Below, piece by piece: positions 23,356-56,156 of a stretch of 64,000 bases of DNA. The notes under the pieces are model-generated. The model made no database searches. It saw nothing but the letters and a program-made list of their open reading frames with translations, and was not told where the DNA came from. This stretch comes from a virus. The first letter of the stretch is position 1. Every line of letters begins with the position of its first letter. A program made the position numbers and the translations under genes. Location: positions 1 through 64,000 of IMG/VR virus record IMGVR_UViG_3300017991_000092. One strand, 5' to 3'.

Positions 23356-23949
23356 ATGTATGAGGAACTTCAGAAGTGGGTAAATGAAAATGTCCCTGAT
23401 GATAAACTCATTTGGAAACGAGGACTTGGTGACCAGGTGATGTTTGTCAGGGATAAGATCCCAGCAATCTTGGCGAGATCATCCGAAGAGTATCGGGGAA
23501 TCAAAGAACGAATTATGGTTGTCAGTACTCACCATTCAAAGTCAGTATGTCTTCCAGTGTATCGTCTTGAATGGTTCGACTATACATTCACGATGCGATA
23601 CAATTTCTATAATTGGATAGTATCTGTAAGGACACCGTATGGAAAACCATTCTATAACATTGACTGGCTAGGAATGATTACCTCGGAGGATAAGGATATC
23701 AATTCCGTATATTGTGAAGGGTTCTCAAAAGATGATGTCTATGGAGCCTACAAAGATGGAGAGAGAAAGTTTACAATTTCTCTATACGATAACTATGAAC
23801 TCTATACATTCTTTAAAGTCATAAAGAATTGGGTAGTAAAGGAGGAAGCTAAACGTGTACAGAATCAGGCGAATTTATCATGTGACGATGGGTCACAGAC
23901 TGAGCAAACATCTGGGTCTGTGCCAGAACTTTCACGGGCACAATGTTGA
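23356..23949 (+). CDS. Hypothetical protein overlapping queD
   Basis: 197 residues, aromatic-rich (many Tyr, Phe, Trp), no recognised family. It follows the topoisomerase by eight bases after GGAGGAG. The last 31 residues are read from the 95 bases shared with queD in another frame and are low in complexity, so the functional part is probably the first ~165 residues. Confidence 0.6.
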   Translation: MYEELQKWVNENVPDDKLIWKRGLGDQVMFVRDKIPAILARSSEEYRGIKERIMVVSTHHSKSVCLPVYRLEWFDYTFTMRYNFYNWIVSVRTPYGKPFYNIDWLGMITSEDKDINSVYCEGFSKDDVYGAYKDGERKFTISLYDNYELYTFFKVIKNWVVKEEAKRVQNQANLSCDDGSQTEQTSGSVPELSRAQC

Positions 23950-24286
23950 ATTTGAAATATCATTGTCAGCTCCATCATTGAATGATAATGATATGATTAT
24001 GGACTTTTCAGAATTAAAAGAGATTGGTGAGAACATATTTGAAATGATGGATCACGCCACACTCTTTAATCCCACAGATGAAAATCTTAAGTTCTTTCAA
24101 GAGCATGGATTCAAGACATTGACATTTCCGACGAAAGCGAATGAGGATCCGACTGCTGAGGTAACATGTAAGTGGGTGTACAGGATTTTTCGCGCGGGTT
24201 TGGACGAGCGAGGTCTTGAAGATGTTACTATTGACTTTGTTCGTATGTGGGAAAACAAGAACTCAATGGCGGAGTACAGTGAATAA
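23855..24286 (+). CDS. queD: 6-carboxy-5,6,7,8-tetrahydropterin synthase (QueD/PTPS family)
   Basis: 143 residues. It converts 7,8-dihydroneopterin triphosphate to 6-carboxytetrahydropterin in 7-deazaguanine (preQ0) synthesis. The zinc ligands are visible: H14 in 'M-G-H-R-L' and H27/H29 in 'C-Q-N-F-H-G-H-N', with the catalytic Cys at 23. Further marks are 'M-D-F-S-E-L-K', 'M-D-H-A-T-L', 'P-T-A-E-V' and a C-terminal Glu. The GTG start lies seven bases after AAAGGAGG (23840-23847) inside the upstream gene. FolE2, which makes its substrate, is at 47634. QueE and QueC were not found in the window. Paralogues can act in biopterin synthesis, but the Cys favours QueD. Confidence 0.85.
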   Translation: MYRIRRIYHVTMGHRLSKHLGLCQNFHGHNVEFEISLSAPSLNDNDMIMDFSELKEIGENIFEMMDHATLFNPTDENLKFFQEHGFKTLTFPTKANEDPTAEVTCKWVYRIFRAGLDERGLEDVTIDFVRMWENKNSMAEYSE

Positions 24287-31656: not shown

Positions 31657-31906
31657 ATATGGCTTTCACATATCTGAATACAATGGAGTTTGGAAGTGGA
31701 CAGTAAGGGACCAACATGGCGTAGAACTTGCGATGAGTCCACGACATGGGTTTGCATCTGCTGATGCTGCAGTCGAAGCAGTGAAAGAACTCATAAATTT
31801 TATCATTGACAATGGGTTCAATATCCCTGTAACCGTGTACAAAGAAGGATTGGAGAATGATAGACAAAATACAAATAGTGAGTTGGCTACTGACGCGGCG
31901 GTGTAA
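31637..31906 (+). CDS. Small protein resembling DUF1508/YegP-like fold
   Basis: 89 residues. The pattern 'Y-G-F-H-I-S-E-Y-N-G-V-W-K-W-T-V-R-D-Q-H-G-V-E-L-A' followed by 'G-F-A-S-A-D-A-A-V-E-A-V-K-E-L' resembles the strand-strand-helix unit of YegP-like domains (F-x-L-x-A-x-N-G-E-V-I-A-T-S-E, then S-K-x-x-A-x-x-G-I-x-S-V). Weak, by-eye match. The last 50 bases overlap the radical SAM gene. Confidence 0.5.
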   Translation: MGWRESRYGFHISEYNGVWKWTVRDQHGVELAMSPRHGFASADAAVEAVKELINFIIDNGFNIPVTVYKEGLENDRQNTNSELATDAAV

Positions 31907-32891
31907 CCTCAAATGTTCCTATTGTGCGATTACCAGGAACTATAAAGGAAAACCAGATCAGTATCCTGATATGAAGCACTACTTGGAAAATGAGATGGAC
32001 ACCAAAACAGTGATTGAAATTCTCAGGAGAATAAAGGCTCATAACCCAGATGCATTCCATATTCTTTATGGGGGCGAGCCGCTCTTGAGAAAAGATCTTC
32101 CGGAGATTGTGAACTTCTGTAACTCAGAAGATATCCATTACACAATCATAACCAATAACTCTGACGAGGTCCAACCATTACTGGAAAAACTCTTGGTTGA
32201 GACCGACTACGTAACTGGTTTGACATCTTCTGTAGATCCTCTAGTTGAATCTGAGGACCCTGAATCCGACCGTTATAAGAAATGTGTCGCAGGGTTTAAT
32301 CGGTTGGGAGAATACAGAGATGTCATTAAAGATGTCGTTGCTGAAATAACCGTTGATAATAACAACGTTGGACATCTTTATAATCTTGTTGCTATGCTCA
32401 CAAAGATGGGAGTTAATAGCGATATAACTTTCATTGATATTGCGAAGAGTCCGTACTATGACTTTTCAAATGTTACAGATGAAGGACTGTTGGTTCCCCA
32501 ATCGGATGAGTTGAGTCTACAATTTGATAAGATTATAGATGATAAACTCGACGTACATATGGCGGATAAACTACTCCCAGAAATCTTTAAAATCTTACCG
32601 TCGGATATGGATTGTGGTATTGAAAACAATATCCATAACATGACCATTGACGCAGATGGATCAGTAAGATTATGTTTGAGAATTCGAGGAGTACAAACTC
32701 CAAAATTTAAAGCAATTGATCAGTTTTCACCCGATGGAAAACTTATGGCTGCATCTCTTAGAAAGTTCATAAAGCATGATAAAGACATATACTGTAGGGG
32801 TTGTAATTGGACCTGTATGTTGATGTCACGGATGCTTTCAAGGAGAAAAGATACAGTCCAGAATCTAGTCCATCGGGATAGGAGGAAATGA
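31857..32891 (+). CDS. Radical SAM protein with SPASM-like C-terminus
   Basis: 344 residues. C16-x3-C20-x2-C23 (R-C-N-L-K-C-S-Y-C) binds the SAM-cleaving 4Fe-4S cluster, and 'Y-G-G-E-P-L-L' follows as the SAM-binding GGE motif. The C-terminus has Cys residues around 'M-T-I-D-A-D-G-S-V-R-L-C' and 'C-R-G-C-N-W-T-C', typical of SPASM auxiliary-cluster domains, which act mostly on peptides or proteins. A substrate is not evident; the small upstream proteins are possible targets. A second radical SAM gene is at 55161. Confidence 0.82.
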   Translation: MIDKIQIVSWLLTRRCNLKCSYCAITRNYKGKPDQYPDMKHYLENEMDTKTVIEILRRIKAHNPDAFHILYGGEPLLRKDLPEIVNFCNSEDIHYTIITNNSDEVQPLLEKLLVETDYVTGLTSSVDPLVESEDPESDRYKKCVAGFNRLGEYRDVIKDVVAEITVDNNNVGHLYNLVAMLTKMGVNSDITFIDIAKSPYYDFSNVTDEGLLVPQSDELSLQFDKIIDDKLDVHMADKLLPEIFKILPSDMDCGIENNIHNMTIDADGSVRLCLRIRGVQTPKFKAIDQFSPDGKLMAASLRKFIKHDKDIYCRGCNWTCMLMSRMLSRRKDTVQNLVHRDRRK

Positions 32892-33196
32892 TGGCAGACA
32901 GAATAACCACTGCTCTCACTTTTCTAGATAGGATTAGAGAAGAGGGAGAAGTTACAATTAAGTTCCGAAAGAAGGATGGAGCCGAAAGGATTATGAGATG
33001 TACTTTGGATATGGAGAAAGTTCCAGTCGCACAAAGACCACAGTCGGTAAATCTCGCAAAGATCTTACGGCTATTGAACACCCATAAGATCCTACATGTT
33101 TATGATATGGATGTGGGTGATTGGAGAAGTGTCCCATTCGATAGAACTGAATGGTTAGAGACGACAGACCAAAGGAGGTACAAAATTGGCGGATAA
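32891..33196 (+). CDS. SH3-like beta-barrel protein (DUF2693-like)
   Basis: 101 residues; ATG-ATG after GGAGG, second chosen for spacing. The motif 'V-T-I-K-F-R-K-K-D-G-A-E-R-I-M-R-C-T-L' with a C-terminal 'V-Y-D-M-D-V-G-D-W-R-S-V-P-F-D' is the pattern of a small phage family annotated as SH3-like barrels (DUF2693). Probably a regulatory or nucleic-acid-binding protein; no function established. Confidence 0.6.
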   Translation: MADRITTALTFLDRIREEGEVTIKFRKKDGAERIMRCTLDMEKVPVAQRPQSVNLAKILRLLNTHKILHVYDMDVGDWRSVPFDRTEWLETTDQRRYKIGG

Positions 33197-33392
33197 AGTA
33201 GATGACCTGTCAATAGAAGTATTTACCAATGTTGACATTGTTCCATATCTAAAATACCATGCAGAGAACAACCCAAATGTTTTAGATGTGGGTGCATTTG
33301 CGATAGCAGTTTTTAAAAATATGAAAGACTTCATAAAGGAGAATTACGGGGAGGTGATAGAGGATGGGAGTGTACCTGGACGAGATTCTTGA
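33186..33392 (+). CDS. Small hypothetical protein
   Basis: 68 residues from a TTG start seven bases after AAAGGAGG, overlapping the previous gene by 11 bases and the next by 29. Acidic, helical; no family recognised. Confidence 0.55.
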   Translation: MADKVDDLSIEVFTNVDIVPYLKYHAENNPNVLDVGAFAIAVFKNMKDFIKENYGEVIEDGSVPGRDS

Positions 33393-33729
33393 ATCAGTGA
33401 AGAAGAATCCAGTGGCGGAACAACTGAGGATTATATGTGACAAGATTTTTGCTGAAGAGATCCATCATCCGAAGTTATATAGAGGTCCACAAGGACCAAA
33501 TATATTTCTATCTCTTCCAGCTGTTAAAGAAGAGACTGGAATGTGTGATACTCATTACGTTTGTCTAGAACGAGAAGCAATGAATAGGTTCATTGTTAGT
33601 CATTGGATCAAGGGAAAGAAATCAGAATCGCCTTTAAAAAGAGTCAAAGTATGGCCTGTTAGAGCAGACACGTCAAAAAAGATTCTAAAGGAGTTTGGGG
33701 CGAAACTGTTATTTGTGAAAGGAGAATAG
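33364..33729 (+). CDS. Hypothetical protein
   Basis: 121 residues, ATG after GGGAGGTGATAGAGG. No known motif; the sequence 'L-Y-R-G-P-Q-G-P-N-I-F-L-S-L-P' lies in the middle. It ends five bases before the E2-like gene, so it may belong to the ubiquitin-like operon. Confidence 0.6.
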   Translation: MGVYLDEILESVKKNPVAEQLRIICDKIFAEEIHHPKLYRGPQGPNIFLSLPAVKEETGMCDTHYVCLEREAMNRFIVSHWIKGKKSESPLKRVKVWPVRADTSKKILKEFGAKLLFVKGE

Positions 33730-33734
33730 AGATT

Positions 33735-36224
33735 ATGGAAGAGATTGTTATGAATCCATACTTTGCCAGCTTGGTAATCTCTGATGAATCAAGCGACACT
33801 TCAGACAAAACTAAAAAAACATTCACTCCATTTAAACGGCTTAAATTGATAGATACGCCGGACTTTTTTCGTGGAATGAATGGTACCCACATGGAGAGGG
33901 AAATTCTTCCGAGGAATTGCAGAATTGTACATGACCTTCCCAATACCAGTGAGAAAATAGTTGTTATTGAGGAAGAGCCGGGTGTCCGGAATCTGAGATT
34001 TGCTGTTGGATTCCAGGGGACTTTAGACTCGCTAAAAAATGCTGGTTATGATGATATGTACCAGTATCTCAGCGAAAATGTAAAGAGTAGAAATGGAGAA
34101 TATACCTTGCAGGTGTCAATGCCATTTGTAGTAGTGGTTATGTTTATTCAAAACTACATTGCCACTTCAGTGCAAGTATTCTTTCGAATGCGACCCCTTA
34201 CAAGTTATTCTGATTCTCTGTACTATGCAAACCTCCTCAACATTCCAGACAGTCAGTATATATGTCTTGGTAATCGACCCCCAAGTTATCGTGAACCAGA
34301 TAATCTCTATGATGCTTGTACTATTGAGCTTGAAAGATTCTGGAACACAGCATATAACATGGATTACTACCACAACTACAAGATGTATGAGCGGGATGTT
34401 CCGGAAGTCTGTAATCCGCTTGTGTGGCATTATAATACTGTGATTGATCCCATGTTTATCTACACAGTTCCGTGGATCATCTATCCTAAAACGATAGGTG
34501 AAACAATAGATGATATGGCGGGTGGTAGAACACAAGGAATCCCATCATACGACAAACTAAGGGAGATATTCTATCGACCAATCAAAGCACAAACAAGACA
34601 CAAAACCCACTATAAAAATACAGCTCAAGAGTTAGCTATTAAAAATAGTTACCTTTGTGTTGGGGATAACATTACAATAGGAAAGAAAGAATACATTGTT
34701 GCATCTTTTGTCGGTACTCCTGGTCATAGACCTACGAGGGTAATCCTACAGGGTGCTGATGGGAAAACGACAGAAGTATCCATTACACAAAAATTCAAAA
34801 ATGAAATCCAGAAGCAGAGATCTGCATCGAAAGAAGTCAAGTCGGTTCAGATTGGTGATCAGAAGATCAGTACCAATGACTTGATTGTGATCAAGTCAAG
34901 ATATGCTGGAAAGATTTTTAAGAAGGTACATGTAATTCGAGTCGCCAGAGATGGTAAAATAGAAGCAAGACTTGGTAGTGATTACTATCTTCTTGAGAAT
35001 TTGGAATTCGATGTTGTGGATATGTCTAACGTTGAAGTTAACGGGATTAAGGTTGACGCAAATAAGACCTATGTTATCCTGAAAGCGGATTATGGTCAAG
35101 GTCCTACGTTCCAAAAGTATGACGTAAAGCTTGACAGTTTTGATTCCAATGGGGCTAACATGAGAGCCTTGTTTAAGAATGTTATGACCGGAAGTAGGAT
35201 TGCAATTGATCTAAATCCAACAGGTACGCCAGTATATAAGTTGTCGGATAGTAAAGACACTTATATAACACCTCCTGTATTTAGATATGCCGACTCTCTT
35301 GTAACCAACTGGAAAGACGGTGGTGTTGATGGTTATGGTCTCATTCCTGGTGAAGGAATAGTGGCCTACGATGGCGGTGGTTATTATAGAGATTATAAAA
35401 GGACTACCGCAAAGAGTAATATCCTGAGCGAGGATAAAACTGAGATTCATATTCCTAGCTTCGATGGAGATATTTACTTCAAAGTTGGGGATGCTGTAGT
35501 TCATGCGGACTGGAACAATCCTGAGAACATGTTGAAAGTCTGCACTATTGCTCTGTTTAAAGAGCAACTTGGGTCGTTGTATATTGTCATGACGACTCTT
35601 GATGGAAAAGAAGTATTTGAAACCGAGTTCATTGATTTTGAACGAGGACGGATCAGACCTGGTACTGTCCGACACATTGTAGCAAAATGGGATAAATGGA
35701 AAGCTGGTGATAAACTTAGAGCAAAAGTTGGTCGTATTCCAGCATTTCCAAAGAAGGATGTCAACACAATCGTTGGGTTCTTACCTGATACAGGTAGAGA
35801 TATCCCTCAAATTTTGATGTCAAACGGGTGTACCCTCTGGATGGACGAAGAGACGATGAACAACTTTGAAGTCCTTCGTAGGGGAACAGCTGCTTGTGCA
35901 AAGCAGAAAAATGCTCCAATGCAACTGGACAAAATTAAGTGGCAACCGGGCGATCTGGTGGTAAGGGATGGTTCGATTGGAATGATTAACCGGCATGAAG
36001 GAAGACGGTCCTTGAGAGTGACTGTTACTGAAAGGAGGGCAGGCTTTACGTACAATTATCCAACAAGGAAAAACTTAGTCAGGTATGGTTTCCTGATACC
36101 AAGACGGACGCAACAACATCAATACATGGGAACTGGATTTCCTGTATTTCCTAACTTCCATGGTTGGTATACTGTTGCGGAAAGGAGTCCAATGCATGTA
36201 TCGGAGGACGTGAACAATGTTTAA
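33735..36224 (+). CDS. E2-like (Prok-E2/PRTRC-B-type) protein with beta-barrel repeats
   Basis: 829 residues. Residues ~85-220 follow the pattern I know from bacterial E2-like proteins of PRTRC-type loci (Prok-E2_D). A hydrophobic strand 'M-P-F-V-V-V-V-M-F' leads into 'V-Q-V-F-F-R-M-R-P-L-T', then 'L-Y-Y-A-N-L-L-N-I-P-D' and 'Y-I-C-L-G' with a Cys at 177 in the catalytic position, then a Phe/Trp/Tyr-rich helix. The remaining ~550 residues look like a string of small SH3/KOW-type beta barrels (repeated G-D-x-V/I openings), possibly binding nucleic acid or protein. It is followed, with overlap, by JAMM, E1 and Ubl genes, which strongly supports a role in conjugation. The family match is by eye. 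Confidence 0.6.
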   Translation: MEEIVMNPYFASLVISDESSDTSDKTKKTFTPFKRLKLIDTPDFFRGMNGTHMEREILPRNCRIVHDLPNTSEKIVVIEEEPGVRNLRFAVGFQGTLDSLKNAGYDDMYQYLSENVKSRNGEYTLQVSMPFVVVVMFIQNYIATSVQVFFRMRPLTSYSDSLYYANLLNIPDSQYICLGNRPPSYREPDNLYDACTIELERFWNTAYNMDYYHNYKMYERDVPEVCNPLVWHYNTVIDPMFIYTVPWIIYPKTIGETIDDMAGGRTQGIPSYDKLREIFYRPIKAQTRHKTHYKNTAQELAIKNSYLCVGDNITIGKKEYIVASFVGTPGHRPTRVILQGADGKTTEVSITQKFKNEIQKQRSASKEVKSVQIGDQKISTNDLIVIKSRYAGKIFKKVHVIRVARDGKIEARLGSDYYLLENLEFDVVDMSNVEVNGIKVDANKTYVILKADYGQGPTFQKYDVKLDSFDSNGANMRALFKNVMTGSRIAIDLNPTGTPVYKLSDSKDTYITPPVFRYADSLVTNWKDGGVDGYGLIPGEGIVAYDGGGYYRDYKRTTAKSNILSEDKTEIHIPSFDGDIYFKVGDAVVHADWNNPENMLKVCTIALFKEQLGSLYIVMTTLDGKEVFETEFIDFERGRIRPGTVRHIVAKWDKWKAGDKLRAKVGRIPAFPKKDVNTIVGFLPDTGRDIPQILMSNGCTLWMDEETMNNFEVLRRGTAACAKQKNAPMQLDKIKWQPGDLVVRDGSIGMINRHEGRRSLRVTVTERRAGFTYNYPTRKNLVRYGFLIPRRTQQHQYMGTGFPVFPNFHGWYTVAERSPMHVSEDVNNV

Positions 36225-37395
36225 TGTATGGATCAACGACGGTACAACTGAAATGCCTACTGACGATATTCTATATATCGTAGCGAAAGATGGGATATTC
36301 TTAAAGAAGAAATTAGGTTTCTTTGAGAGTATTGCGAAAGTGGACCAAATGTCTATTTTGAAAGATGTAGATCCTTATGCGACGATGGACATTAAACCAA
36401 TACCAAGAAAGAAATTTGCTCAAATCATTTCATTCTATCGTGAAGTGGCTAAGCAATTTTCTGGTGAGGCGATGACCATTTTACATTATAACCCGAAACG
36501 AAAAAGGTTTAGAATTGAAATCCCTGACCAGGAAGTTTCGGGTGGTGGTGTTGGATGGGAAAGTTTGGAAAGCTACAAGGGTTATGTTCGAATCGGTTCA
36601 ATTCATAGCCACAATCATATGTCCGCTTTCCACTCAGGAACGGATGATAACGACGAATTCAATTGGGATGGAATTCATATCACGATTGGAAAAGTCGGGA
36701 ATCCAAATGTTGACATTTCAGCGTCATTAGTGTTTAACGGAACCAGGTTCATGATTGACCCATGTGATTATGTAGAAGACTTGGAAATGGTAGAATCCGA
36801 GGCTTCATATGTAGGTCCAAAGACCTATAAATGGGAAGGTAATAAGCTGGTACCAGCAAACGACGCTGCTAAGAAAACAGTTACATTAGGATATCGAATC
36901 AAAAATGAAAGGGCTAAGGAAAGGAAATTCCCTTCTACCTGGTTGAAGAATGTGAGTAAATGGATGCCGAGAACTCAACCAAATCAGGGAATTTATTCAG
37001 GTGGTGTCAATGGTATTGTTGGACCGGCTCGACAACCATGGCAGCATAATCCACATGGAAATCCTTATTGGGGAAGGTTCCATCAAGGTCGTCATAATGG
37101 TCGACAAGCTCTCTTGAGACGACAATTTAATACAGGAAATAATCATGATCAGGTCGCTGCTCAGGAAGGAGTCAGTTTTGACACAGCTTATGAACCCGGG
37201 GATCCAATGGATTGGGATCCATGTGAAAACTGTCCGTATTGCAACTATAAATCCAACCAGTTGCTTATGGATCTTATTAACCAGTTGGATTTGGATGAGG
37301 ACCAGTTAGCACAGCTTGGGCTTACTGAAGAAGAAGATGACAATCCATTAGCGGGTGAATACGATGGAGGTGAAGTGTATGTTGGGGGACCGTAG
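36217..37395 (+). CDS. JAMM/JAB metallopeptidase (PRTRC-A-type deubiquitinase-like)
   Basis: 392 residues. The JAMM signature H-x-H-x7-S-x2-D is exact: H130-S-H132, S140 and D143, with E84 in 'S-G-E-A-M' as the likely catalytic Glu. JAMM enzymes remove ubiquitin-like proteins from targets or process their C-termini. The C-terminal ~200 residues are basic, Gly/Asn/Gln-rich, then carry a Cys pair set (C-E-N-C-P-Y-C) and an acidic tail, unlike minimal JAB domains. It overlaps the E2-like gene by eight bases and E1 by 17. Confidence 0.85.
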   Translation: MFNVWINDGTTEMPTDDILYIVAKDGIFLKKKLGFFESIAKVDQMSILKDVDPYATMDIKPIPRKKFAQIISFYREVAKQFSGEAMTILHYNPKRKRFRIEIPDQEVSGGGVGWESLESYKGYVRIGSIHSHNHMSAFHSGTDDNDEFNWDGIHITIGKVGNPNVDISASLVFNGTRFMIDPCDYVEDLEMVESEASYVGPKTYKWEGNKLVPANDAAKKTVTLGYRIKNERAKERKFPSTWLKNVSKWMPRTQPNQGIYSGGVNGIVGPARQPWQHNPHGNPYWGRFHQGRHNGRQALLRRQFNTGNNHDQVAAQEGVSFDTAYEPGDPMDWDPCENCPYCNYKSNQLLMDLINQLDLDEDQLAQLGLTEEEDDNPLAGEYDGGEVYVGGP

Positions 37396-38074
37396 AATCA
37401 AAATTGTTGGATTGGGCGGAATCGGTTCTGCATTATGTGATAACCTATGCAGATTTCTAAACCATCAACCCACCCGCTGTAGACTTGTACTAATTGATGG
37501 TGATGACTACGAGATTAAAAATAAAGCTCGCCAGTCATTTAATCAGTTGGGAAACAAGGCGAGGGTAAAATGTACAGAAATGAGATTGTCCCATGAGAAT
37601 ATCTCGTTTGACGATGTTGCTGAATATCTAACACCGTCAAATATTGGGGAGTACATTCAAGAAGATGACGTTGTGTTTCTGTGTGTAGATAACCATAAAA
37701 CGAGAAAAGTGGTTTCTGATCATGCAAAGACACTTGAAAACGTTATTGTGATTTCTGGTGGTAATGAATACACAGACGGAAATGTGCAAATCTTTATTAG
37801 AGAAGGAGGTGAAAATAAAACACCGTCGTTGTCAGATTACCATCCGGAGATCGCCCACCCTGGTGATAAGTCACCAGATGAAATGAGCTGTGAAGAGTTG
37901 GCGAACTCTGAGCCACAATTGTTATTTGCAAATCTTTCTGTGGCTACAATTATGTGTTGGACTTTCTACAATATTCTTGAAGGAAAGTTGGCGCAGAACA
38001 GCTCAGAAGTATATTTCGACATGTTGAAAATGAATACGCTAGCAAAACAACGAAAACCTAGAGCTCAAAAGTAA
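37379..38074 (+). CDS. E1-like ubiquitin-activating ThiF-family enzyme (PRTRC type)
   Basis: 231 residues from the ATG after GGAGGTGA. Rossmann 'G-L-G-G-I-G-S' at 11-17, 'L-I-D-G-D-D-Y-E-I-K-N-K-A-R-Q-S-F' (the E1 D-x-D...E-x-x-N-x-x-R-Q segment), 'C-V-D-N-H-K-T-R' and the late 'Y-H-P-E-I-A-H-P' then 'M-S-C-E-E' with C171 as probable catalytic Cys. These match PRTRC-system ThiF proteins, which adenylate the C-terminal Gly of a ubiquitin-like partner and pass it on as a thioester. It ends 15 bases before the Ubl gene. Confidence 0.85.
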   Translation: MLGDRRIKIVGLGGIGSALCDNLCRFLNHQPTRCRLVLIDGDDYEIKNKARQSFNQLGNKARVKCTEMRLSHENISFDDVAEYLTPSNIGEYIQEDDVVFLCVDNHKTRKVVSDHAKTLENVIVISGGNEYTDGNVQIFIREGGENKTPSLSDYHPEIAHPGDKSPDEMSCEELANSEPQLLFANLSVATIMCWTFYNILEGKLAQNSSEVYFDMLKMNTLAKQRKPRAQK

Positions 38075-38089
38075 GGAGGATTGAAACAA

Positions 38090-38572
38090 ATGGGTACATT
38101 TAAAAGAGAGACATTGGAAGCTAAGACGGTTGTGGAACTCAGGGACATTCTTCGCAAGAAACAAATTAAAGGGATGATGAAGAAACCCAAGAGACAAATT
38201 ATCAATGCGATCATGGATTCCCAGAAGGGTGCGGTTCCTGCAGCTGCAGTGGCGAAACCTTCCAAAGCTTCTCCCAAGTCCACTGGACCGGTTACCAAAA
38301 TGTCTCTGACAATGGACAGTGAATTGACGAAGCCTGGTGCTCGATTCGGTAACAGAACCAAGACGACCGTCCGTGTTTCCTGTGGTGCTTCTTCTGGTGA
38401 CTTTCCGGTTTGCGGTAAGAGCGTCGGCGCTGTTGCGAACTTCCTGCGCGAAGTCCTCAATGTCGATAAGCTCGCTGAGGGTCTTGTCAACGGTGAAAAA
38501 GTCTCTGAGGACTATGTTCTCCGTGAAGGGGATACCCTCGAATACATCAAACCTGCTGGCCGCAAGGGCTAG
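38090..38572 (+). CDS. SAP-ubiquitin-like (beta-grasp) fusion protein
   Basis: 160 residues, start at the ATG nine bases after AAGGAGGA. Residues ~10-45 (V-V-E-L-R-D-I-L-R-K-K-Q-I-K-G then K-K-P-K-R-Q-I-I-N-A-I) fit the SAP helix-turn-helix DNA-binding motif. An Ala/Pro/Lys/Ser linker (~46-90) leads to a beta-grasp-like domain (92-160) that includes 'K-L-A-E-G-L-V-N-G-E-K-V', 'L-R-E-G-D-T-L-E-Y-I' and ends G-R-K-G, like PRTRC protein C (ending near G-T-K-G). The C-terminal Gly would be the site activated by E1. Codons here are C-ending and Leu CTC/CTG-rich, unlike its neighbours, which suggests very high expression. Confidence 0.7.
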   Translation: MGTFKRETLEAKTVVELRDILRKKQIKGMMKKPKRQIINAIMDSQKGAVPAAAVAKPSKASPKSTGPVTKMSLTMDSELTKPGARFGNRTKTTVRVSCGASSGDFPVCGKSVGAVANFLREVLNVDKLAEGLVNGEKVSEDYVLREGDTLEYIKPAGRKG

Positions 38573-38582
38573 AGCGTAGTTA

Positions 38583-38608
38583 GTGGGGGTGGGGAAACTC
38601 ACCCCCAC
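38583..38608 (+). terminator. GC-rich hairpin after the ubiquitin-like gene
   Basis: 9-bp stem (38583-38591 with 38600-38608), loop of 8, starting 11 bases after the Ubl stop. No U-run follows; the next ribosome binding site starts six bases later. It may end or stabilise the abundant Ubl message. Confidence 0.5.
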
Positions 38609-38625
38609 ATCCCGGAGGTGAAAAC

Positions 38626-39165
38626 ATGGAAGAAGAAGTTCGAGTGGTCGAGGAAACTGATGAGCACTATTTAATTGAGAAGTTAGATGGATCAATGGTG
38701 AAGGCTTATAAGATTGACCAGCGAGATATTGTTGCGGCTCATATAGCTGGAGTTAATAAAATCGCAAAAGCTTTAGAACCAAGAGATGTAATGCATCTCG
38801 TTCATCTTATTGAAAATATTCTGAATTTTGAACCGACGATTTCAGAGTATTTGGATATGGCTACGAATCTTGGTAATGTTATTGGTGACCTCTACGATAG
38901 AGTTGGAAATCCAAATCTTTTACATCATCCACATAAAAACATACACCCGGAATGTTATGGAACTGCACAGACTCTTAGAGATGAATGTGTCAAGCTGCTA
39001 AAGTTATTGTGGGAGGTGTTAGAAGAGCAAGAGAGAGGAAATCGTATTGGCGACGTGAGATATAGTGTAGCTGAAATGACCAGGATAGTACTTTATGTTG
39101 CTAACCATCAAATTAAGTTCTCAAGACAAAGAGAGTGTACATATACGACAACAAAAATCTCTTGA
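38626..39165 (+). CDS. Hypothetical protein in the ubiquitin-like cluster
   Basis: 179 residues, mostly helical, His-rich centre ('L-L-H-H-P-H-K-N-I-H-P-E-C'). Preceded by GGAGGTG. No family recognised. It sits between the Ubl and the second E1 and so may be part of the same system. Confidence 0.6.
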   Translation: MEEEVRVVEETDEHYLIEKLDGSMVKAYKIDQRDIVAAHIAGVNKIAKALEPRDVMHLVHLIENILNFEPTISEYLDMATNLGNVIGDLYDRVGNPNLLHHPHKNIHPECYGTAQTLRDECVKLLKLLWEVLEEQERGNRIGDVRYSVAEMTRIVLYVANHQIKFSRQRECTYTTTKIS

Positions 39166-39205
39166 TTTATGAACCCGTTTATTATAGAAAGGGGTATTAT
39201 GTGAA

Positions 39206-40096
39206 ATGGCGAATAGTATCGTTGTAATCGGGTTAGGCTCGCTGGGAGGTTTCTTTGCAGAAAATATCTCAAAGCTTGACGGGGTGAAACGCCTCATTCT
39301 TGTTGACCCGGATATTGTCGAGAAGAAAAATCTGAAAAATTCTATTTACAGAAAGAGAGATGTTGGAAAAGGAAAGGTTGATGCGCTTGCTGATATTCTA
39401 GAATTCAGTCTAGATGGGAGCATCGAAATCATAAAAATCTTTAAGGAGTTTAAGGAGGGAGAGACACAACTACCAGAAGCAGATTTGGTGTTTGATTGTA
39501 GGGATGTTCTATGTAGCAGGGGTGGTTACATAGATGTGAAGATGTACATTTCTTTCCGAACGTTAGTCGTCGACTGTCAAAAACATGTTAATATTCCAAA
39601 CACACGACGTGGAAGATATGTAGACCATGTTACCAAGAATGATATTCGAAATGCAGCATTTAACGCATTTCTTCTAGTGTATAGTAAGAAGATTTATGAT
39701 TTGATGCGACAACAGACAGTACATACAATCCAGTTGGACGATTATCGAGAAGGTGTAAACCAAAGTCTTGAGTTGGTACAGAGTAAAAATGACTTGGTAT
39801 ATGAAAGTCAGAATGGAGAAGAGAAATTAGTAAATCTCCATGAGAATCTAGTACCAATTCTTGAAGCCAATAAAAAACAGGATCTGAATGTGATTATTGG
39901 TGAAAAGCAAAATGTTTCACAAAAGTTAATGAAAATTCCATGTTCTGAGATGAGGGACCAATTCGACGTGATTAGGGTTTTCTCTGAGTTAGCAAGGAAC
40001 ATTCCATTGTCGTATGATAGGTATCTAATTCGAGTATTATATCTAAAGAAGGAAGGTATATATATCGAATTGCTACCCAGCACAGGAGCTGCATAA
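39206..40096 (+). CDS. Second E1-like ThiF-family protein
   Basis: 296 residues. 'V-V-I-G-L-G-S-L-G-G-F' (Rossmann), then 'L-V-D-P-D-I-V-E-K-K-N-L-K-N-S-I-Y' and 'D-V-G-K-G-K-V-D-A-L', the standard adenylating-enzyme segment with D-x-D, V-E-x2-N-L and G-K-x-K-x2-A. 'F-D-C-R-D' contains the Asp that binds Mg-ATP. The sequence is only distantly like the E1 at 37379; the catalytic Cys is not obvious. It is followed one base later by a candidate E2-like protein. Confidence 0.8.
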   Translation: MANSIVVIGLGSLGGFFAENISKLDGVKRLILVDPDIVEKKNLKNSIYRKRDVGKGKVDALADILEFSLDGSIEIIKIFKEFKEGETQLPEADLVFDCRDVLCSRGGYIDVKMYISFRTLVVDCQKHVNIPNTRRGRYVDHVTKNDIRNAAFNAFLLVYSKKIYDLMRQQTVHTIQLDDYREGVNQSLELVQSKNDLVYESQNGEEKLVNLHENLVPILEANKKQDLNVIIGEKQNVSQKLMKIPCSEMRDQFDVIRVFSELARNIPLSYDRYLIRVLYLKKEGIYIELLPSTGAA

Positions 40097-40097
40097 A

Positions 40098-40511
40098 ATG
40101 GGAGAACAATTCACAGTTGAGGTGAATAGTCCGATAGTCCCTGTTTCACTTATCTGGAATCAACAACTTTATGAGATTGTCGGCGTTCACCCAAGTTATG
40201 TGATGAATAAATATACAGTACACGTCGACGACTCTAGAAACATTACGGAATTGTACATCTGGAACTCGTTCCACCCAAACGCAGGCAATGCAACCAATGA
40301 ACAAGTTCCTATTTCACAACCGCCGAGAATGAGTAAGTTCTGTTTACCACCAGAGTTAATAGGAACTCATTTTGAGCTTCCTGATACTACTTACTTTTTA
40401 GAGCAATTTGTTCTAAATCGGTGGTACCTTGATAATCCACATCACTATCCAAATCCTATCCATTACAAAACTGAACCAGACATAGGAGGGCAACATGTTG
40501 GGAGAATTTGA
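40098..40511 (+). CDS. Candidate second E2-like protein
   Basis: 137 residues. A beta-rich N-terminus leads into 'L-Y-I-W-N-S-F-H-P-N-A-G' and, about 18 residues on, 'K-F-C-L-P-P-E-L', followed by a helical C-terminus. H-P-N followed by a catalytic 'C-L' is the E2 active-site flap pattern, although canonical E2s have a much shorter gap. Its position directly after an E1-like gene is suggestive. Treat as a hypothesis; a structure prediction would settle it. Confidence 0.4.
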   Translation: MGEQFTVEVNSPIVPVSLIWNQQLYEIVGVHPSYVMNKYTVHVDDSRNITELYIWNSFHPNAGNATNEQVPISQPPRMSKFCLPPELIGTHFELPDTTYFLEQFVLNRWYLDNPHHYPNPIHYKTEPDIGGQHVGRI

Positions 40512-40789: not shown

Positions 40790-43501
40790 ATGCCATCTTT
40801 GTTAAACTATAACCAGTTCTGTGAAGAACTAAAAGAAGTTACAACAACAAAGATTATTGACAAGAAGAAGTTCCATGCTGAAGGTCTGTTCTCTGAACAG
40901 ATCTTTGGTCCTGTTAAGAACTATACTTGTCAATGTGGGACATATTATGGAATCTCTGGAGCAGGTGGTACGTGTAAAGATTGTGGGGTCGACGTTGTAA
41001 ATAGTAATGAACGACGTCGAAGATTTGCTAAAATTGTATTACCAATACCAGTGGTCAATCCAGTCTTTTATGATCTGTTGATTGACCTTGGTGGTAATAT
41101 GATTAAAGATGCGATCACCCAATTGCTTAGAGATGAAAAAAGTGTCCTATATTGGCATGAGGATGAAGAAGAATTTAGGATCACAGATGAGGAAAATATA
41201 GAAGCTGGTACCGAGATTTTTAGAGGTACCGCTGCTGTCAAAGAAATGATCCAAGTTCTTGCAGATAAACTTGCGGAAGAAGACGCTGAGGGATGGGATA
41301 TAGTTCTCGATAATATCGATCAATTGGTTATAGAATATGTCATTGTATTACCTCCGGACCTAAGACCTGCATCTAGAGGTGTTACACAAAATGACCAAGT
41401 GGTTGATAAAATCAATAGATTCTATACTCAGATCCTAACAAAGAAAGAAGCTATGAGGGATACAATTTTGGATGTCAGACGAGATCCAACTTTGTATTAC
41501 AGCTATGCAAAACAACTCCAGAAGGATGTCAATGAGTTATACACGCATATTCTTGATAAGTTGTCAAAAAAGGAAGGGTTGATTCGCGGAAATATTCTTG
41601 GGAAGAGAATAGATTTCTCGGGTCGAGCTGTCATTGTGCCATCACCGACACTCAATTTTGATGAGTGCTCACTTCCGTATGCTATGTTTCTAGAATTATT
41701 CAAACTGAGAATTGCTAAAAAGTTAATTCAGTTGGAAAAATTCAAACTTCTGAATGACGCCATTGACTTTGTAGATGAATGTATAGAGCTGAAAATTCCG
41801 GTTCTATTTAAGATCTGTGAAGAGATGGCGGAAGGTGAAGTATGTTTGTTAAATAGACAACCCTCGCTCCACAAATTAAGCATGTTGGGATACTACATTA
41901 AAGTATCTTTGGATAATGTAATTAAGATACACCCATTGTCATGTCCACCATTCAATGCTGACTTTGATGGTGACCAGATGGCGGTATACATCCCAATCAC
42001 ACCGGAGTCAAAACAAGAAGTAATTGATAAACTCCTGGTTACTAGAAATTTAAGTAACCCATCAAATGGAAGTTTGTCAACTGTTCCAAGCCAAGATATG
42101 GTTCTTGGAGTTTACTCATTAACAACTGGATACTTCAAAGAATTTAGTGCCTTGATAGATTGTAAAGGAGAGCAAATAACTGAAGGTATGAAACTTTTCA
42201 ACGATTGCTTACCTGAAGATTATCCTCTTGTAAATGAGTCTGTTGGTGGAAAACGTTTGGTAGAAATACTGAACGATATAAACACAAGATACGAACCTGA
42301 AGAAGTAATACGAGTCCTTGATAACATTAAATTTCTTGGGTTTAAGTACTCAACATTATTTGGTGCAACTCTTTCTCTGAACCATTGTTATATGGAAGAG
42401 GCGGTGAACATCAGGGAAGGGTTATATGAGAGTGACTCGATTGTTGAACAGGTGAGTAAAGTATCAGGCGATGAAACAACTCAATTACTGAAAGACAACT
42501 TCCATTATTCTTATATGATTGAGTCTGGAGCAAGAGGTAGTTGGGATCAGGTTCGACAAATAGTCTTAACCAGAGGGTTTATCTCAAACTTTAATGGCGA
42601 GATTATTACAGAACCTATCAAGAATAGTTTCATCAGAGGATTAACCCAAAAAGAGTTCTTCAACTCTACGTATGGTAGTAGAAAAGGTCTCCTTGACGTT
42701 GCGTTGAACACTGGAACTTCAGGTTACCTTTCTAGAAAATTAATCTTCGCTTGCGCAAATCTCCAGATAGATCAAAGTTTGGATGATTGCGGAACCCAAG
42801 ACTTTCTTGATGTGTATGTTGATACACCAAAGAAAGCAAAAATGTTGGTTGGTAAATGGATGAAGACTGATGGTGGACTCATGTTAATTACCGAAGACAA
42901 TTGTATGACTTTGGTCAGCGAGTTGATCCAAGTTAGGAGTCCAATCTTATGTCAATCGGAAAGATTATGTTGTAAATGTTACGGTGAGTTGTATAAGACT
43001 CTTGATACAAGATTTGTAGGAGTTATAGCAGCGCAATCCCTTGGAGAATGTAATACTCAGTTAGTATTGAGAACATTCCATACGAGTGGTGTAGCACAGC
43101 TAAATAAGGACAACGATGCAGAAGATATGAAGCAACAAGATATTGTTAGTGATCTATCAACTGTATCCAGACTCCTACACCAGTTCAATAAGAGTACAAA
43201 ATATGATGAGTTGACTCATAATCTTTTCACAAATTACAACCATCGACGTACAATACATCATACACATTTTGAGTGTGTTGTGTCACAGCTTATGTGGAGT
43301 GGAGTTCAAAAGTGGAGATTGGTAAAAGATCGAGACAAAGCAAAGCTTGAATTCCACAGTGTCCAGACAGTTCCATCTTATGAATCGTGGTTGATGGGAC
43401 TGGCGTTTTCAAATCCAAAGAAACACATCATTAAAGGTATCTTACATTCTGGTTTGTATAAGGGTGTAATGGACAAGATCTTATGTGGTGAAAGCGTATA
43501 A
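40790..43501 (+). CDS. RNA polymerase set B, beta-prime subunit (single chain)
   Basis: 903 residues. Contains the N-terminal zinc finger C-Q-C-x12-C-K-D-C missing from set A, 'P-P-D-L-R-P', 'G-L-I-R-G-N-I-L-G-K-R-I-D-F-S-G-R-A-V-I', catalytic NADFDGD at 389-395, 'N-R-Q-P-S-L-H', the bridge-helix/trigger-loop region with 'G-S-R-K-G' and 'N-T-G-T-S-G-Y', and 'A-A-Q-S-L-G-E-C-N-T-Q-L' with 'F-H-T-S-G'. It then continues through a shortened C-terminal part including 'H-F-E-C-V-V-S-Q-L-M' and 'A-F-S-N-P-K-K-H-I-I-K-G-I'. It is therefore complete in one chain. Likely the polymerase made during infection; partner beta is immediately downstream. Confidence 0.95.
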   Translation: MPSLLNYNQFCEELKEVTTTKIIDKKKFHAEGLFSEQIFGPVKNYTCQCGTYYGISGAGGTCKDCGVDVVNSNERRRRFAKIVLPIPVVNPVFYDLLIDLGGNMIKDAITQLLRDEKSVLYWHEDEEEFRITDEENIEAGTEIFRGTAAVKEMIQVLADKLAEEDAEGWDIVLDNIDQLVIEYVIVLPPDLRPASRGVTQNDQVVDKINRFYTQILTKKEAMRDTILDVRRDPTLYYSYAKQLQKDVNELYTHILDKLSKKEGLIRGNILGKRIDFSGRAVIVPSPTLNFDECSLPYAMFLELFKLRIAKKLIQLEKFKLLNDAIDFVDECIELKIPVLFKICEEMAEGEVCLLNRQPSLHKLSMLGYYIKVSLDNVIKIHPLSCPPFNADFDGDQMAVYIPITPESKQEVIDKLLVTRNLSNPSNGSLSTVPSQDMVLGVYSLTTGYFKEFSALIDCKGEQITEGMKLFNDCLPEDYPLVNESVGGKRLVEILNDINTRYEPEEVIRVLDNIKFLGFKYSTLFGATLSLNHCYMEEAVNIREGLYESDSIVEQVSKVSGDETTQLLKDNFHYSYMIESGARGSWDQVRQIVLTRGFISNFNGEIITEPIKNSFIRGLTQKEFFNSTYGSRKGLLDVALNTGTSGYLSRKLIFACANLQIDQSLDDCGTQDFLDVYVDTPKKAKMLVGKWMKTDGGLMLITEDNCMTLVSELIQVRSPILCQSERLCCKCYGELYKTLDTRFVGVIAAQSLGECNTQLVLRTFHTSGVAQLNKDNDAEDMKQQDIVSDLSTVSRLLHQFNKSTKYDELTHNLFTNYNHRRTIHHTHFECVVSQLMWSGVQKWRLVKDRDKAKLEFHSVQTVPSYESWLMGLAFSNPKKHIIKGILHSGLYKGVMDKILCGESV

Positions 43502-43503
43502 CG

Positions 43504-43510
43504 AAGGAGG
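43504..43510 (+). promoter_or_regulatory. Ribosome binding site deciding a TTG start of set B beta
   Basis: AAGGAGG lies seven bases before the TTG at 43518 and just after the beta-prime stop. The upstream in-frame GTG codons (43485, 43488) have no such site, so TTG is the more probable start. Confidence 0.6.
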
Positions 43511-43517
43511 TTGGATC

Positions 43518-46500
43518 TTGAACATCATTAATCCGCACTACAAATTGCGTGAACAGAACATTTTCTCCATAAGAGACCAAGAATATGCAGCGCTCCTAGA
43601 GACAGTAAGACAAATTCTAATCCCGGCTGAAGAGCTGGGATTTGAACTTACTGACTGTAGGATAAAAGATTCGAGGTTCTCAACTGGAGAGATTTCTAGA
43701 ACTTTAAAACAGAACCTAGTCATTCGATTACAAAAGGGAGCGTCAAAGATTGACCTCTCAATGCAAATTCCAAAGCTCGTTGATGGGAATTATATCATCA
43801 TAAACGGGAGGAAGAAAATTCCCCAATTTCAATTGTTTGATATTCCAGTTGTTACAAGGGGAAAGAGTATCAAAATCAGGACTAATGTAGCGACAATTAT
43901 GATCATTGAGCAGAAGGAAGCTCCCTTTACATACATCAGTATTCTTGGGAGAAAAGTCCCGTTGTTTCTGGTTATCTTTGGTTACTATGGAATTGAGCCT
44001 GTTGCGCAGAGGTTTAATCTTCCAACACTTCAAGTAAGCGATACCAACCTGGACACAATGTATGACCGACTGCTTTATGACATGAAAATGTTCTATGATA
44101 GTTCTCGGGGTACTACACAAGATGATATCATCAAAGAAATTGGTAGATATTACTCAAAGTACAATGCTAGAGTTAAGGGTGAAGATTTGATGTATGCTCT
44201 TGACTTAATCCTTGATACAGATGTAATGTCTGCTTGCTTCTTTAGGACCGGGTCCATTCTAGAAGAGATTCTAGATGTAATGCAAAACGGTCCATTGGAT
44301 GATACGTTAATTACAAACAAGAGGATTCGATGTTTTGAGTATGTCATCCTCGCAAAGGTCTCTAAAGCTGTATTTGATCTCTGTATGTCAAATCGTACAG
44401 CTAGACAACCGAAATTCAATGTAAACTCAACTGCGATTTTATCTGAGTGTAATGTATCGGATATAGTCCAGTTTGACTTTTCTATTAATCCAATCGACGA
44501 GCTGACCAAACTAAGTAGAACTAGTCTTGTAGGTCCTGGTGGTTTTAACAGACAAAATGTACCAGAGCATCTAAGAGATATTATGCCTACAATGTTTGGA
44601 CGGTTATGTCCAGTTGACACACCTGACCGAGATAATTGTGGAGTTCTCCAGAACTTAGTTCCAAATGCAATTTTAGATGACAATTTAAAGTTTTCTGAAG
44701 AGTATTTGGAGAAACAACCAATCTCAATAGCGGTGTCAATGGTTCCATTTCTTGAGCACGATGACCAAACTCGACTCCAGATGTCAGCTTCACAGATGCG
44801 TCAAAGTATTATGTTAAAGAACTTCGACCAACCAATGATCCAGTCTGGTTGTGAAGGGTTGTATACAGACAAGACACAATTTGTAAAGGTAGCAAAGAAA
44901 AATGGAGAAGTCGTACATCTCGATCACAACTATCTCATCTTGCTTTATGATGACAAGACCGTAGATATATTCGATATCTCATATCGAAAGATTTACATCT
45001 CAAACCTTGATGTATACAAAGTTTATGTACAACAAGGGGATAAAGTCAAAGCAGGAGATATTCTGGCTGAGAGTTATTTTACAGATAATGGAAAGATTAA
45101 CATTGGTAAAAACCTGTTAACTGCTGTTGCGGAATACTATGGGTATAACTATGAGGATGGAATTGTCCTATCTGATAGAGTTGTAAAAGAGGGAATGTTC
45201 ACATCTGTACATTTCATAGATTTATCCTTTACCCTTCCGCCAAATAAAGTTCTCCTAAGTCTTTCACAAGATGAGTATAAACCCCTTCCAGGTGTAAGGG
45301 AAAGGGTTTCTAAAGGAGAACCATATATGATTACCAAGGAAATGCCTTCTATACAGATGGATTACAAAAGCATTTTTAAGAAGGAACGTCCGGTATTAGC
45401 TAAATCGGATATGATTATCACCGAGGTAAACATGTTTGCAAACTCATGGAATAAAGAAATACCACAGTTTGATAAATGGATGGAAAAGAAGTTAACGCAA
45501 CAGCAAAAGCAAGAAGAGAAAATTGCTAACATCGTTGGGGAATATCTTTCCAAAGAAGATACAACTAGATTCGTAAGGGATCATGATCTTGCGAAATATG
45601 GAAATATTGGAAAGTATAAATTCAAAGGTGAATACATTAACGGTGTCCGAGTAGAGATGTTTGGAATCTTCTTCCGACCAATCCAAATCGGTGACAAAAT
45701 TGGAAATCGTCATGGGAATAAGGGAGTTGTATCTACTATTGTACCACAAGAGAAAATGCCACAACTACCTGATGGGCGACACGTAGATATTTGTATTAAT
45801 CCGCTTGGTATTATAAGCCGGATGAATATTGGGCAAGTTTATGAACTCCATTTAGGCATGGCTCTATATGACTTGAGGGAAACTCTGAAAGCAATTCTTG
45901 ATGGACGGGAAAAGAATTCAGCAGAATTAGATGACGCAAAACGTCAAGAACTTGCAAAAAGATTTCTCCTTGGATTTATTGAGTTGGTTGATAAAACTGA
46001 CGAACATTGGTATTATGACCAATATGTAGAACATCTTCCAGAAACTATCGACGAGAAGTTTATTGATAACATTGTTCTCCTACAACCTCCATTTGAGTCG
46101 ATGAATATGTCTGAGATGAAGGAAGCATTGGAGTACACAGGCACAAAGTTTGAGTACCCACTATTTGAACCGATGGCTGGACAGAACATTCAGAATGAGA
46201 TTGCTGTGGGTTATTTGTACTTCTTTAAGATGGTACACATTGCTGAGACTCGTCTTGCTGCAAGAGGAATTGGATCCTACACAAGGAAGACACTTCAACC
46301 TTTAGCAGGAAGAAAGAATCGAGGCGGTCAGAGAATGGGTGAAATGGAAACAGGGTGTCTCATTGGACATGACGCTCCAGTTAACTTAGCAGAATGTCTG
46401 ACAACCAAGTCAGATTGTACTGATAAGAAGAACCAATATATCCGAGATGAAATTGACACGGGTATGAAACTGGAAGAGGAAGGTGACAATGTAGCAGAAT

Positions 46501-46550
46501 CTGTCAAACTTCTGAAAGCGTATCTTACGACAATAGGAGTAAGGATGTGA
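43518..46550 (+). CDS. RNA polymerase set B, beta subunit
   Basis: 1010 residues from TTG. Landmarks: '[14 protein letters not shown]' at ~364-377 (the cellular T-P-E-G-P-N is altered to T-P-D-R-D-N), '[14 protein letters not shown]', '[12 protein letters not shown]' (~725-736), '[13 protein letters not shown]', and 'G-G-Q-R-M-G-E-M-E' (~935-943). It lacks the 400-residue N-terminal extension of the set A beta. The gene follows beta-prime directly; the pair forms the catalytic core of the second polymerase. Confidence 0.94.
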
Positions 46551-55160: not shown

Positions 55161-56156
55161 ATGATTAAGGAAATCAAAACAAGTAAATATAGGATTTCAT
55201 TTAACACAGAAACCGGGGAAGAAGAATTGGAAGGGATTAATGGAAACGACGATCCCTTTTCTCTGGAATTTCCGAGTATGCTGGACATTGGAATTATGGG
55301 TAGCTGTCCGAATAAATGTAAGATGTGTTACCAAGGAGATAAGGTGGAGCCACATATGACTCTGGATCTGTTCAAACAAATCATTGACGAAGCAAAAGAT
55401 GGTACATGTCAATGTGCGTTGGGTGGTCGTGGAGATCCAAATCTTCATCCGCAATTCGAGGAGATCATTAAATACGCATGTGAAAATGGTGTGATTCCAA
55501 ACTACACTACCAGCGGTAATGGTCTTACAGATGAACAAATAGAATCATCCAAAAAGTATTGCGGAGCTGTTGCTGTTAGCGACTATGGAAAGGAGTTCAC
55601 ATTCTCAGCTTTAAACAGACTGATGGATGCAGAAGTCAAAACAAATATTCATCTAGTCTTTTCTGCGCCAAACTTCATGAAGTCGATAGCCATTTTAGAT
55701 GGTCAAGATGCATGGAGTGGTCGTGTCAATATAGAGAAGTTAAATGCTGTGATATTTCTCTTGTTTAAGCCACAAGGTCGTGGTAGAGATTTGGAGAAAT
55801 GGATTCCAACTGATCTCATGCTGGAATTATTCAGCTATGGAATTGCACTTCCAAAAACGAAATTTAAAGTTGGGATGGATAGCTGCTTAGTAAACCATAT
55901 CATGAGGTTTAGAAAACTCAACAAGTTGGAACAGGAGTACGTTGACACTTGTGAGGGTGCAAGGATGAGTTGTTACATTACACCAGATGGGAGACTTGTT
56001 CCTTGTTCATTTGGAAACCATGATGAATATGGAAGTGATATTAAACATCACGGAATAAGGAGAGTATGGAATGACGGACTTGCATTCAAAGGATTCAGAA
56101 AGACTCTTAGATCAAGACCAAATCAATGCCCTTTTGAAACGGACGGTTGGCGTTAG
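55161..56156 (+). CDS. Radical SAM protein with SPASM-like C-terminus
   Basis: 331 residues. C49-x3-C53-x2-C56 in 'C-P-N-K-C-K-M-C-Y-Q' binds the radical SAM cluster, 'G-G-R-G-D-P' takes the SAM-binding position, and the C-terminal 'C-E-G-A-R-M-S-C-Y-I-T-P-D-G-R-L-V-P-C-S-F' with a further Cys resembles a SPASM domain for auxiliary clusters. It is not QueE, which is shorter and lacks this domain. The product of the reaction is unknown. Overlaps the next gene by 86 bases. Confidence 0.8.
   Translation: MIKEIKTSKYRISFNTETGEEELEGINGNDDPFSLEFPSMLDIGIMGSCPNKCKMCYQGDKVEPHMTLDLFKQIIDEAKDGTCQCALGGRGDPNLHPQFEEIIKYACENGVIPNYTTSGNGLTDEQIESSKKYCGAVAVSDYGKEFTFSALNRLMDAEVKTNIHLVFSAPNFMKSIAILDGQDAWSGRVNIEKLNAVIFLLFKPQGRGRDLEKWIPTDLMLELFSYGIALPKTKFKVGMDSCLVNHIMRFRKLNKLEQEYVDTCEGARMSCYITPDGRLVPCSFGNHDEYGSDIKHHGIRRVWNDGLAFKGFRKTLRSRPNQCPFETDGWR

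Follow-up and report, generated by a model that had tools for sequence, protein, structure and literature searches.

A probable PRTRC-type ubiquitin-like conjugation system as a core operon in a clade of large tailed phages

What use would a phage have for enzymes that activate, transfer and remove a ubiquitin-like protein (Ubl)? The question is raised by an operon at positions 33735 to 40511 of a 64,000-nucleotide stretch of DNA, here referred to as the window, which comprises bases 1 to 64000 of the 80,832-base virus record IMGVR_UViG_3300017991_000092. A first-pass annotation had listed, in this region, an E2-like protein with Cys177, a JAMM peptidase with an HxHx7SxxD motif, an E1 enzyme, a Ubl with a G-R-K-G end, another E1-like protein and a 137-amino-acid (137-aa) protein, and all of these were found as open reading frames at the coordinates given below. 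We consider it probable that they represent a complete conjugation system of the PRTRC type (the "6d" type of Iyer et al.), which has become part of the genomic core in a clade of large tailed phages. To our knowledge, Ubl conjugation in bacteria has so far been known mainly as host defence.

The four core proteins

The first gene of the set (33735..36224; this and all other genes of the region are on the plus strand) encodes an 829-aa E2-type protein with a Prok-E2_D/PRTRC_B-like N-terminal domain, which spans residues ~40 to 260 and includes Asn169 and Cys177, the latter in a Y-I-C-L-G context, and with an extension of ~560 aa that is specific to this phage clade. The Pfam Prok-E2_D profile matches weakly (0.085, residues 124 to 228). 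When residues 1 to 270 of 21 phage E2s were compared with nine PRTRC_B/E2_D proteins, hhalign returned a probability of 96.9% and an expect value (E) of 2e-10, with Cys177 placed on the conserved cysteine, and unrelated control pairs gave no match in the same test. By profile comparison, the large protein is clearly of the E2 type, and its earlier description as E2-like was borne out. Asn169 lies eight residues before Cys177, and in classical E2s the asparagine of the HPN motif likewise precedes the catalytic cysteine by eight residues. In alignments of the window and 64 further non-redundant loci (n=65), on which residue conservation is based unless another sample is given, N169, C177, W203 and N208 are invariant (57/57); W203 and N208 are the invariant residues after Cys177, where no conserved histidine is present. 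A tblastn search with the 829-aa protein matched no GenBank phage.

The next gene (36217..37395) encodes a PRTRC_A-like JAMM/JAB metallopeptidase of 392 aa, which matches the NCBIfam family PRTRC_A (TIGR03735) over residues 20 to 176 with an E value of 4.9e-11, below the curated cut-off. Its motif, H130-S-H132-x7-S140-x-x-D143, is intact, and E84, H130, H132, S140 and D143 are invariant (64/64). It is followed by the activating enzyme E1a (37355..38074), which matches Pfam ThiF (1.3e-19) and, again below the curated cut-off, PRTRC_ThiF (TIGR03736; 6.2e-11). The catalytic-type cysteine described previously as Cys171 is present, but that number counts from an alternative ATG start at 37379; from the GTG at 37355 it is Cys179. 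This residue stands within M-S-C-E-E-L, aligns by eye with the S-C-S motif of PRTRC ThiF proteins and, together with R59, Q60 and D112, is found in all 65 sequences.

The Ubl (38090..38572) more likely starts at the ATG at 38090 than at a TTG at 38081, since most relatives, and the model match, begin there. A Rho_N/SAP-like domain at about 38114 to 38224 is followed by a beta-grasp domain at about 38354 to 38569, which ends A-G-R-K-G. Among 20 members, Rho_N was matched by 15 (best value, 3.8e-13), TGS by 14 and ThiS by 9, and on these profile matches the protein combines a nucleic-acid-binding domain of the Rho_N type with a ThiS/TGS-like beta-grasp domain that follows it. Direct alignment with PRTRC_C gave a weak match (hhalign, 42%; E, 2.6e-4) in which the GxKG tails are aligned. 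The Ubls of a minimal four-gene cassette described below form a bridge, matching PRTRC_C at 80.9% (E, 1.2e-5) and the phage Ubl at 99.8%. When the short Ubl profile was run against the PDB, a DUN1 match (0.001) appeared, which was taken as chance. As side observations, the Rho_N-type domain is seemingly duplicated in G008 and G009 (the contigs of L105 and L109), and a single frame at L024:10730-11956 joins a Ubl-like N terminus to the second E1-like protein without a GxKG tail, which is either a fusion or a sequence error.

The Ubl tail typically reads E-F-x-K-x-x-G-x-K-G, and the G, K and G of GxKG are invariant (64/64). About a third of the loci carry residues beyond the KG, most often a single Cys; others are YK, R, LL and VILTK, and L110 has some 65 residues. 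Two tandem Ubls are present in L015. Since the extensions vary and relatives have tandem Ubls, the precursor may be trimmed after the KG by the adjacent JAMM protein, a cleavage that would fit these tails. The Gly-Lys-Arg-Gly remnant on lysine that had been suggested for mass spectrometry is not what such a tail would leave; the tryptic remnant of a ...GRKG tail would be a single Gly (+57.02), the same mass shift as carbamidomethylation gives.

Distribution and inheritance

Loci were gathered from two viral scans, one genome scan and local profile searches and fall into two classes. Class 1, the kind found in the window, comprises 64 non-redundant loci besides it, all of which have the genes for the beta' and beta subunits of a phage RNA polymerase (RNAP) just downstream. 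With few exceptions, the genes follow one order on the same strand: radical SAM protein (rSAM), p102, p121, E2, JAMM, E1a, Ubl, in some cases p179, the second E1-like protein (E1b), the 137-aa protein, beta' and beta. As 64 further loci keep this order and the conserved residues, the operon is real, far above what chance would give. Class 2 has only E2, JAMM, E1 and Ubl (L042-L083, L123-L127 and L131-L137); its contigs were assigned by binning to Patescibacteria, Methylomirabilota, Lentisphaerae, Chloroflexi and further groups, or are huge viral contigs of up to 527 kb, some with a terminase.

Nearly all class 1 loci fall into a single clade of the E1 tree (support, 0.95), together with two loci whose contigs stop short of the RNAP genes; two other class 1 loci, one of them L049, are placed beside class 2. 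Three class 1 contigs, L049, L041 and L040, ended up in genome bins of Woesearchaeota, Thermoplasmatales and Heimdallarchaeota. These are probably binning errors, because L041 and L049 carry the phage RNAP and contig 2 of the L049 genome carries a terminase.

The median ratio of nonsynonymous to synonymous substitution rates (dN/dS) lies between 0.10 and 0.15 for five of the operon genes (E1a, JAMM, Ubl, E1b and the 137-aa gene) and is 0.31 for E2 (from four pairs only), against 0.11 for RNAP beta'. Patristic distances correlate with those of RNAP beta' at 0.85 for E2, 0.80 for Ubl, 0.76 for E1a, 0.67 for JAMM and 0.58 for E1b, the largest of 200 permutations being 0.29. Given these low ratios and the correlations above the permuted values, the core is an old phage operon that has been inherited mostly vertically and under purifying selection, and not recent cargo. 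No integrase was found in the window's record or in 11 related records (0/12), and TerL is present in 10 of 12 related large records, some of which reach 277 kb. Because the core parts match, the active sites are invariant and the operon is mostly inherited with the RNAP, in genomes that mostly have TerL and in which no integrase was found, we assign it, from its sequences, to a phage-core variant of the PRTRC/6d conjugation type.

Additional proteins and genomic setting

E1b (39206..40096) consists of a Rossmann domain, which matches ThiF (8.4e-14), and a C-terminal domain. Its AlphaFold2 (AF2) model has a predicted local distance difference test (pLDDT) score of 83, and Foldseek matches include the E1 enzymes Cap2, UBA5 and ThiF. 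The Rossmann GxGxxG and Lys57 are kept, and Asp100 is present in 59/65, but the arginine of NxxRQ is missing and no cysteine is conserved where E1 enzymes have the catalytic one; the conserved Cys98 falls in a D-C-R-D nucleotide motif instead. The protein, E1-like in family, looks catalytically degenerate. The C-terminal domain (about 39884 to 40093) is modelled as strand-strand-helix-strand-strand, the order of a ubiquitin-like fold, and ends T-G-A-A, most members having T-G-A/G-A at this end. Sequence profiles gave no support for homology of this domain to the Ubl, and only the predicted topology hints at kinship.

The 137-aa protein (40098..40511) had been proposed as a second E2. Its HPN motif (residues 59 to 61) and Cys82 are, with Pro15, the only invariant residues in 19 members; H and C align in 62/62, with a spacing of 9 from the HPN asparagine to the cysteine in 49, and the pattern fails in 5. 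In the model, the HPN motif follows a strand and the cysteine precedes a helix with E2-like spacing, as judged from the textbook UBC layout. No significant match to E2_D, PRTRC_B or PDB profiles was obtained; the best PDB profile match was an E2 at the motif, with a nonsignificant E value of 0.3. Since, in addition, Foldseek listed no E2, the conserved motif stands without a fold match and the protein is kept as a candidate E2 only. Weak prion-domain matches were taken as chance.

Between Ubl and E1b, about 10 of the 64 loci have a 179-aa protein of unknown function (p179; 38626..39165). Upstream of the E2 gene lie an rSAM (31857..32891; Pfam Radical_SAM, 4.5e-13), found in the same order in 56/64 loci, a 102-aa WYL_2/Sm-like SH3 barrel protein (p102; 32888..33196; Pfam WYL_2, 7.8e-6), whose order is also kept, and, directly before E2, a conserved 121-aa protein (p121; 33364..33729) present in 49/64. 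It is uncertain whether the first two, rSAM being the usual upstream neighbour, are members of the system. Pfam, NCBIfam and PHROGs searches gave no family match beyond noise for p121, and profile comparison gave no support for it as an extra E2 or Ubl; PHROGs and NCBIfam gave only noise for E2, p179 and the 137-aa protein as well.

Downstream are the RNAP beta' (40790..43501) and beta (43485..46550) genes, both assigned with PHROGs RNAP profiles and by synteny, the former across 64 loci. A separate set of beta'/beta-like genes lies at 4367-6706 and 8807-12898, so that the phage probably encodes both a virion and a non-virion polymerase. Baseplate and terminase genes in the record mark a large tailed type, which also has topoisomerase II, SbcD-like and helicase genes. 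TerL is ~30 kb from the operon, which sits among RNAP and replication genes. Elsewhere, the window encodes a QueD-like 6-pyruvoyl-tetrahydropterin synthase (23855-24286), a second rSAM with a SPASM domain (55161-56156) and a strong match (7.8e-71) to DUF7873, a family of unknown function (57933-58694). A proteasome-like 178-aa open frame was noticed in another class 1 phage record (G004, the contig of L106; 43161-43673, minus strand).

Possible functions and comparison with known systems

From the families to which these proteins belong, we infer that the set carries out conjugation. JAMM would trim Ubl precursors to ...G-x-K-G, E1a would adenylate the terminal glycine and then take the Ubl on Cys179, and the Ubl would be passed to Cys177 of the E2 domain, with the clade-specific extension selecting the target and JAMM also taking the tag off. 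E1b and the 137-aa protein probably constitute an auxiliary arm, in which the second E2 may be brought in by the ubiquitin-like C terminus of E1b, in the manner of UFD domains. The tag might act on complexes that contain nucleic acid, and phage or host RNAP is a possible target. A role in transcription or in such complexes is suggested by three features: the operon keeps its place beside the RNAP genes, its Ubl carries a Rho_N domain, and the terminase gene lies at a distance. We offer this role as a tentative first guess.

Several points weigh against the conjugation reading and its proposed steps. In the E2_D domain the histidine of classical E2s is missing, the Ubl tail is GxKG and not GG, and no E3 candidate was identified. 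The 137-aa gene tracks the RNAP beta' phylogeny weakly (0.35), and the AF2 model of its product (pLDDT, 91) had no E2 among the listed Foldseek matches in the PDB or BFVD. No PRTRC biochemistry was found in the searchable literature, and the idea of an RNAP target draws only on neighbourhood and the Rho_N domain.

Counter-defence and virion assembly, the two purposes named in the first-pass annotation, are guesses; the PRTRC-type set itself, in a tailed phage with no integrase found, was supported. That the cascade disables host defence proteins, or that JAMM strips host Bil- or CBASS-type tags from phage proteins, is rather unlikely: bacteria turn Ubl conjugation on phages, which makes phage interference plausible (PMC10097602, and Hor 2024 via PMC12660748), but anti-defence genes are usually patchy whereas this operon is core, syntenic and largely vertical with the RNAP, and tag removal needs no whole E1/E2/Ubl set. 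Attachment of the Ubl to structural proteins, or its directing their processing, has a parallel in TAPI and TAPK of phage tail assembly, in which a Ubl is coupled to a JAB domain (PMC1779556), yet the location of the operon among RNAP and replication genes, remote from TerL, makes a part in virion assembly or maturation quite improbable.

It is conceivable, if highly doubtful, that E1a thiocarboxylates the Ubl as a sulfur carrier like ThiS, MoaD or Urm1, with the sulfur going, e.g., to tRNA or another base modification. The ThiS/TGS-like beta-grasp, the ThiF-like E1a and the QueD-like gene would fit this, but an E2-type protein with an invariant cysteine and JAMM are fixed partners, the tail is GxKG and not GG, and none of the operon genes was recognised as a sulfurtransferase. 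Delivery of tagged host or phage proteins to a protease is suggested only by analogy with ubiquitin and is very unlikely; since ClpP was absent from 12/12 phage records and a proteasome-like protein present in only 1/12, degradation would depend on host proteases. It is also unlikely that there are two linked pathways, one of the GxKG Ubl, E1a and the large E2, and another in which the E1b C terminus (T-G-A-A) is a second modifier with its own HPN...Cys E2; if true, we know of no parallel to a phage two-modifier system acting on RNAP.

Under the preferred reading, in which the operon is a conjugation system of the phage core, genes for activation, transfer and removal have become fixed beside the phage's own RNAP, which offers a testable case of a virus with its own ubiquitin-like chemistry and may help to give a function to uncharacterised PRTRC systems. 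We found no earlier description of such a system as phage-genome core within the searchable literature, and a comparative survey of jumbo phages from 2021 mentions neither ThiF, JAB nor Ubl conjugation (PMC7824862).

PRTRC, a bacterial plasmid cassette (A, B, C, E, F, ThiF and ParB), shares with the operon the PRTRC_A JAMM, PRTRC_B E2 and PRTRC_ThiF E1, the gene order B-A-ThiF and a Ubl tail of GxKG (GTKG in bacterial PRTRC_C). The earlier claim of agreement in order and motif needs one correction, in that PRTRC_C lies upstream in bacteria, whereas the phage Ubl lies downstream and is joined to a Rho_N domain. The phage E2 is also ~3x longer, and E1b, the 137-aa protein and the RNAP neighbourhood are additional. 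PRTRC ParB (TIGR03734) had no match in the incomplete 80.8-kb record (G000), and an NCBIfam search of the operon proteins found no PRTRC_E or PRTRC_F among them.

Type 6d operons (Ub-like, JAB, E1, E2 and a helical protein) were predicted in 2006 to be Ubl conjugation systems (Iyer, Burroughs and Aravind; PMC1779556). Common to both are the four core parts, i.e., a stand-alone Ub-like protein with a C-terminal glycine, E1, JAB and an E2 with a conserved cysteine and without the classical histidine; the 6d E2, in contrast to that of the phages, has an absolutely conserved histidine downstream of the cysteine. Type 6d was described in bacteria; the E2 extension, E1b, the HPN protein and the link to RNAP are additions of the phage class. 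CBASS (cyclic oligonucleotide-based antiphage signaling system) Cap2/Cap3 and Bil share the E1/E2/JAMM chemistry, and the E1b fold matches Cap2 and UBA5, but these are host-encoded defence systems (for type II CBASS, see PMC10097602) with other E2 and Ubl or substrate families, on the opposite side of the conflict. The TAPI-TAPK proteins of lambda and T1 likewise combine a phage Ubl with a JAB domain, but have no E1 or E2 and belong to the tail module, not the RNAP module.

PRTRC-like genes are also carried by Bacillus phage vB_BauM_KLEB27-3 and Vibrio phage D69, namely E2_D, JAMM, E1 and Ubls with GxKG tails, the Ubls being annotated as hypothetical: four in tandem, each ending GVKG, in the former (L038:1718-2425) and three units ending GTKG in the latter (L039:3385-4176). 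They differ in having a minimal cassette, tandem Ubls and an E1 that is only ~30% identical, and no E1b or 137-aa protein was noticed nearby. Recent common ancestry with the Bacillus phage system was rejected, as the E1 tree, which of the two phages took in the Bacillus one, groups KLEB27-3 with plasmid-type E1s outside the clade. Both phages are cultivated and could serve as models for this chemistry.

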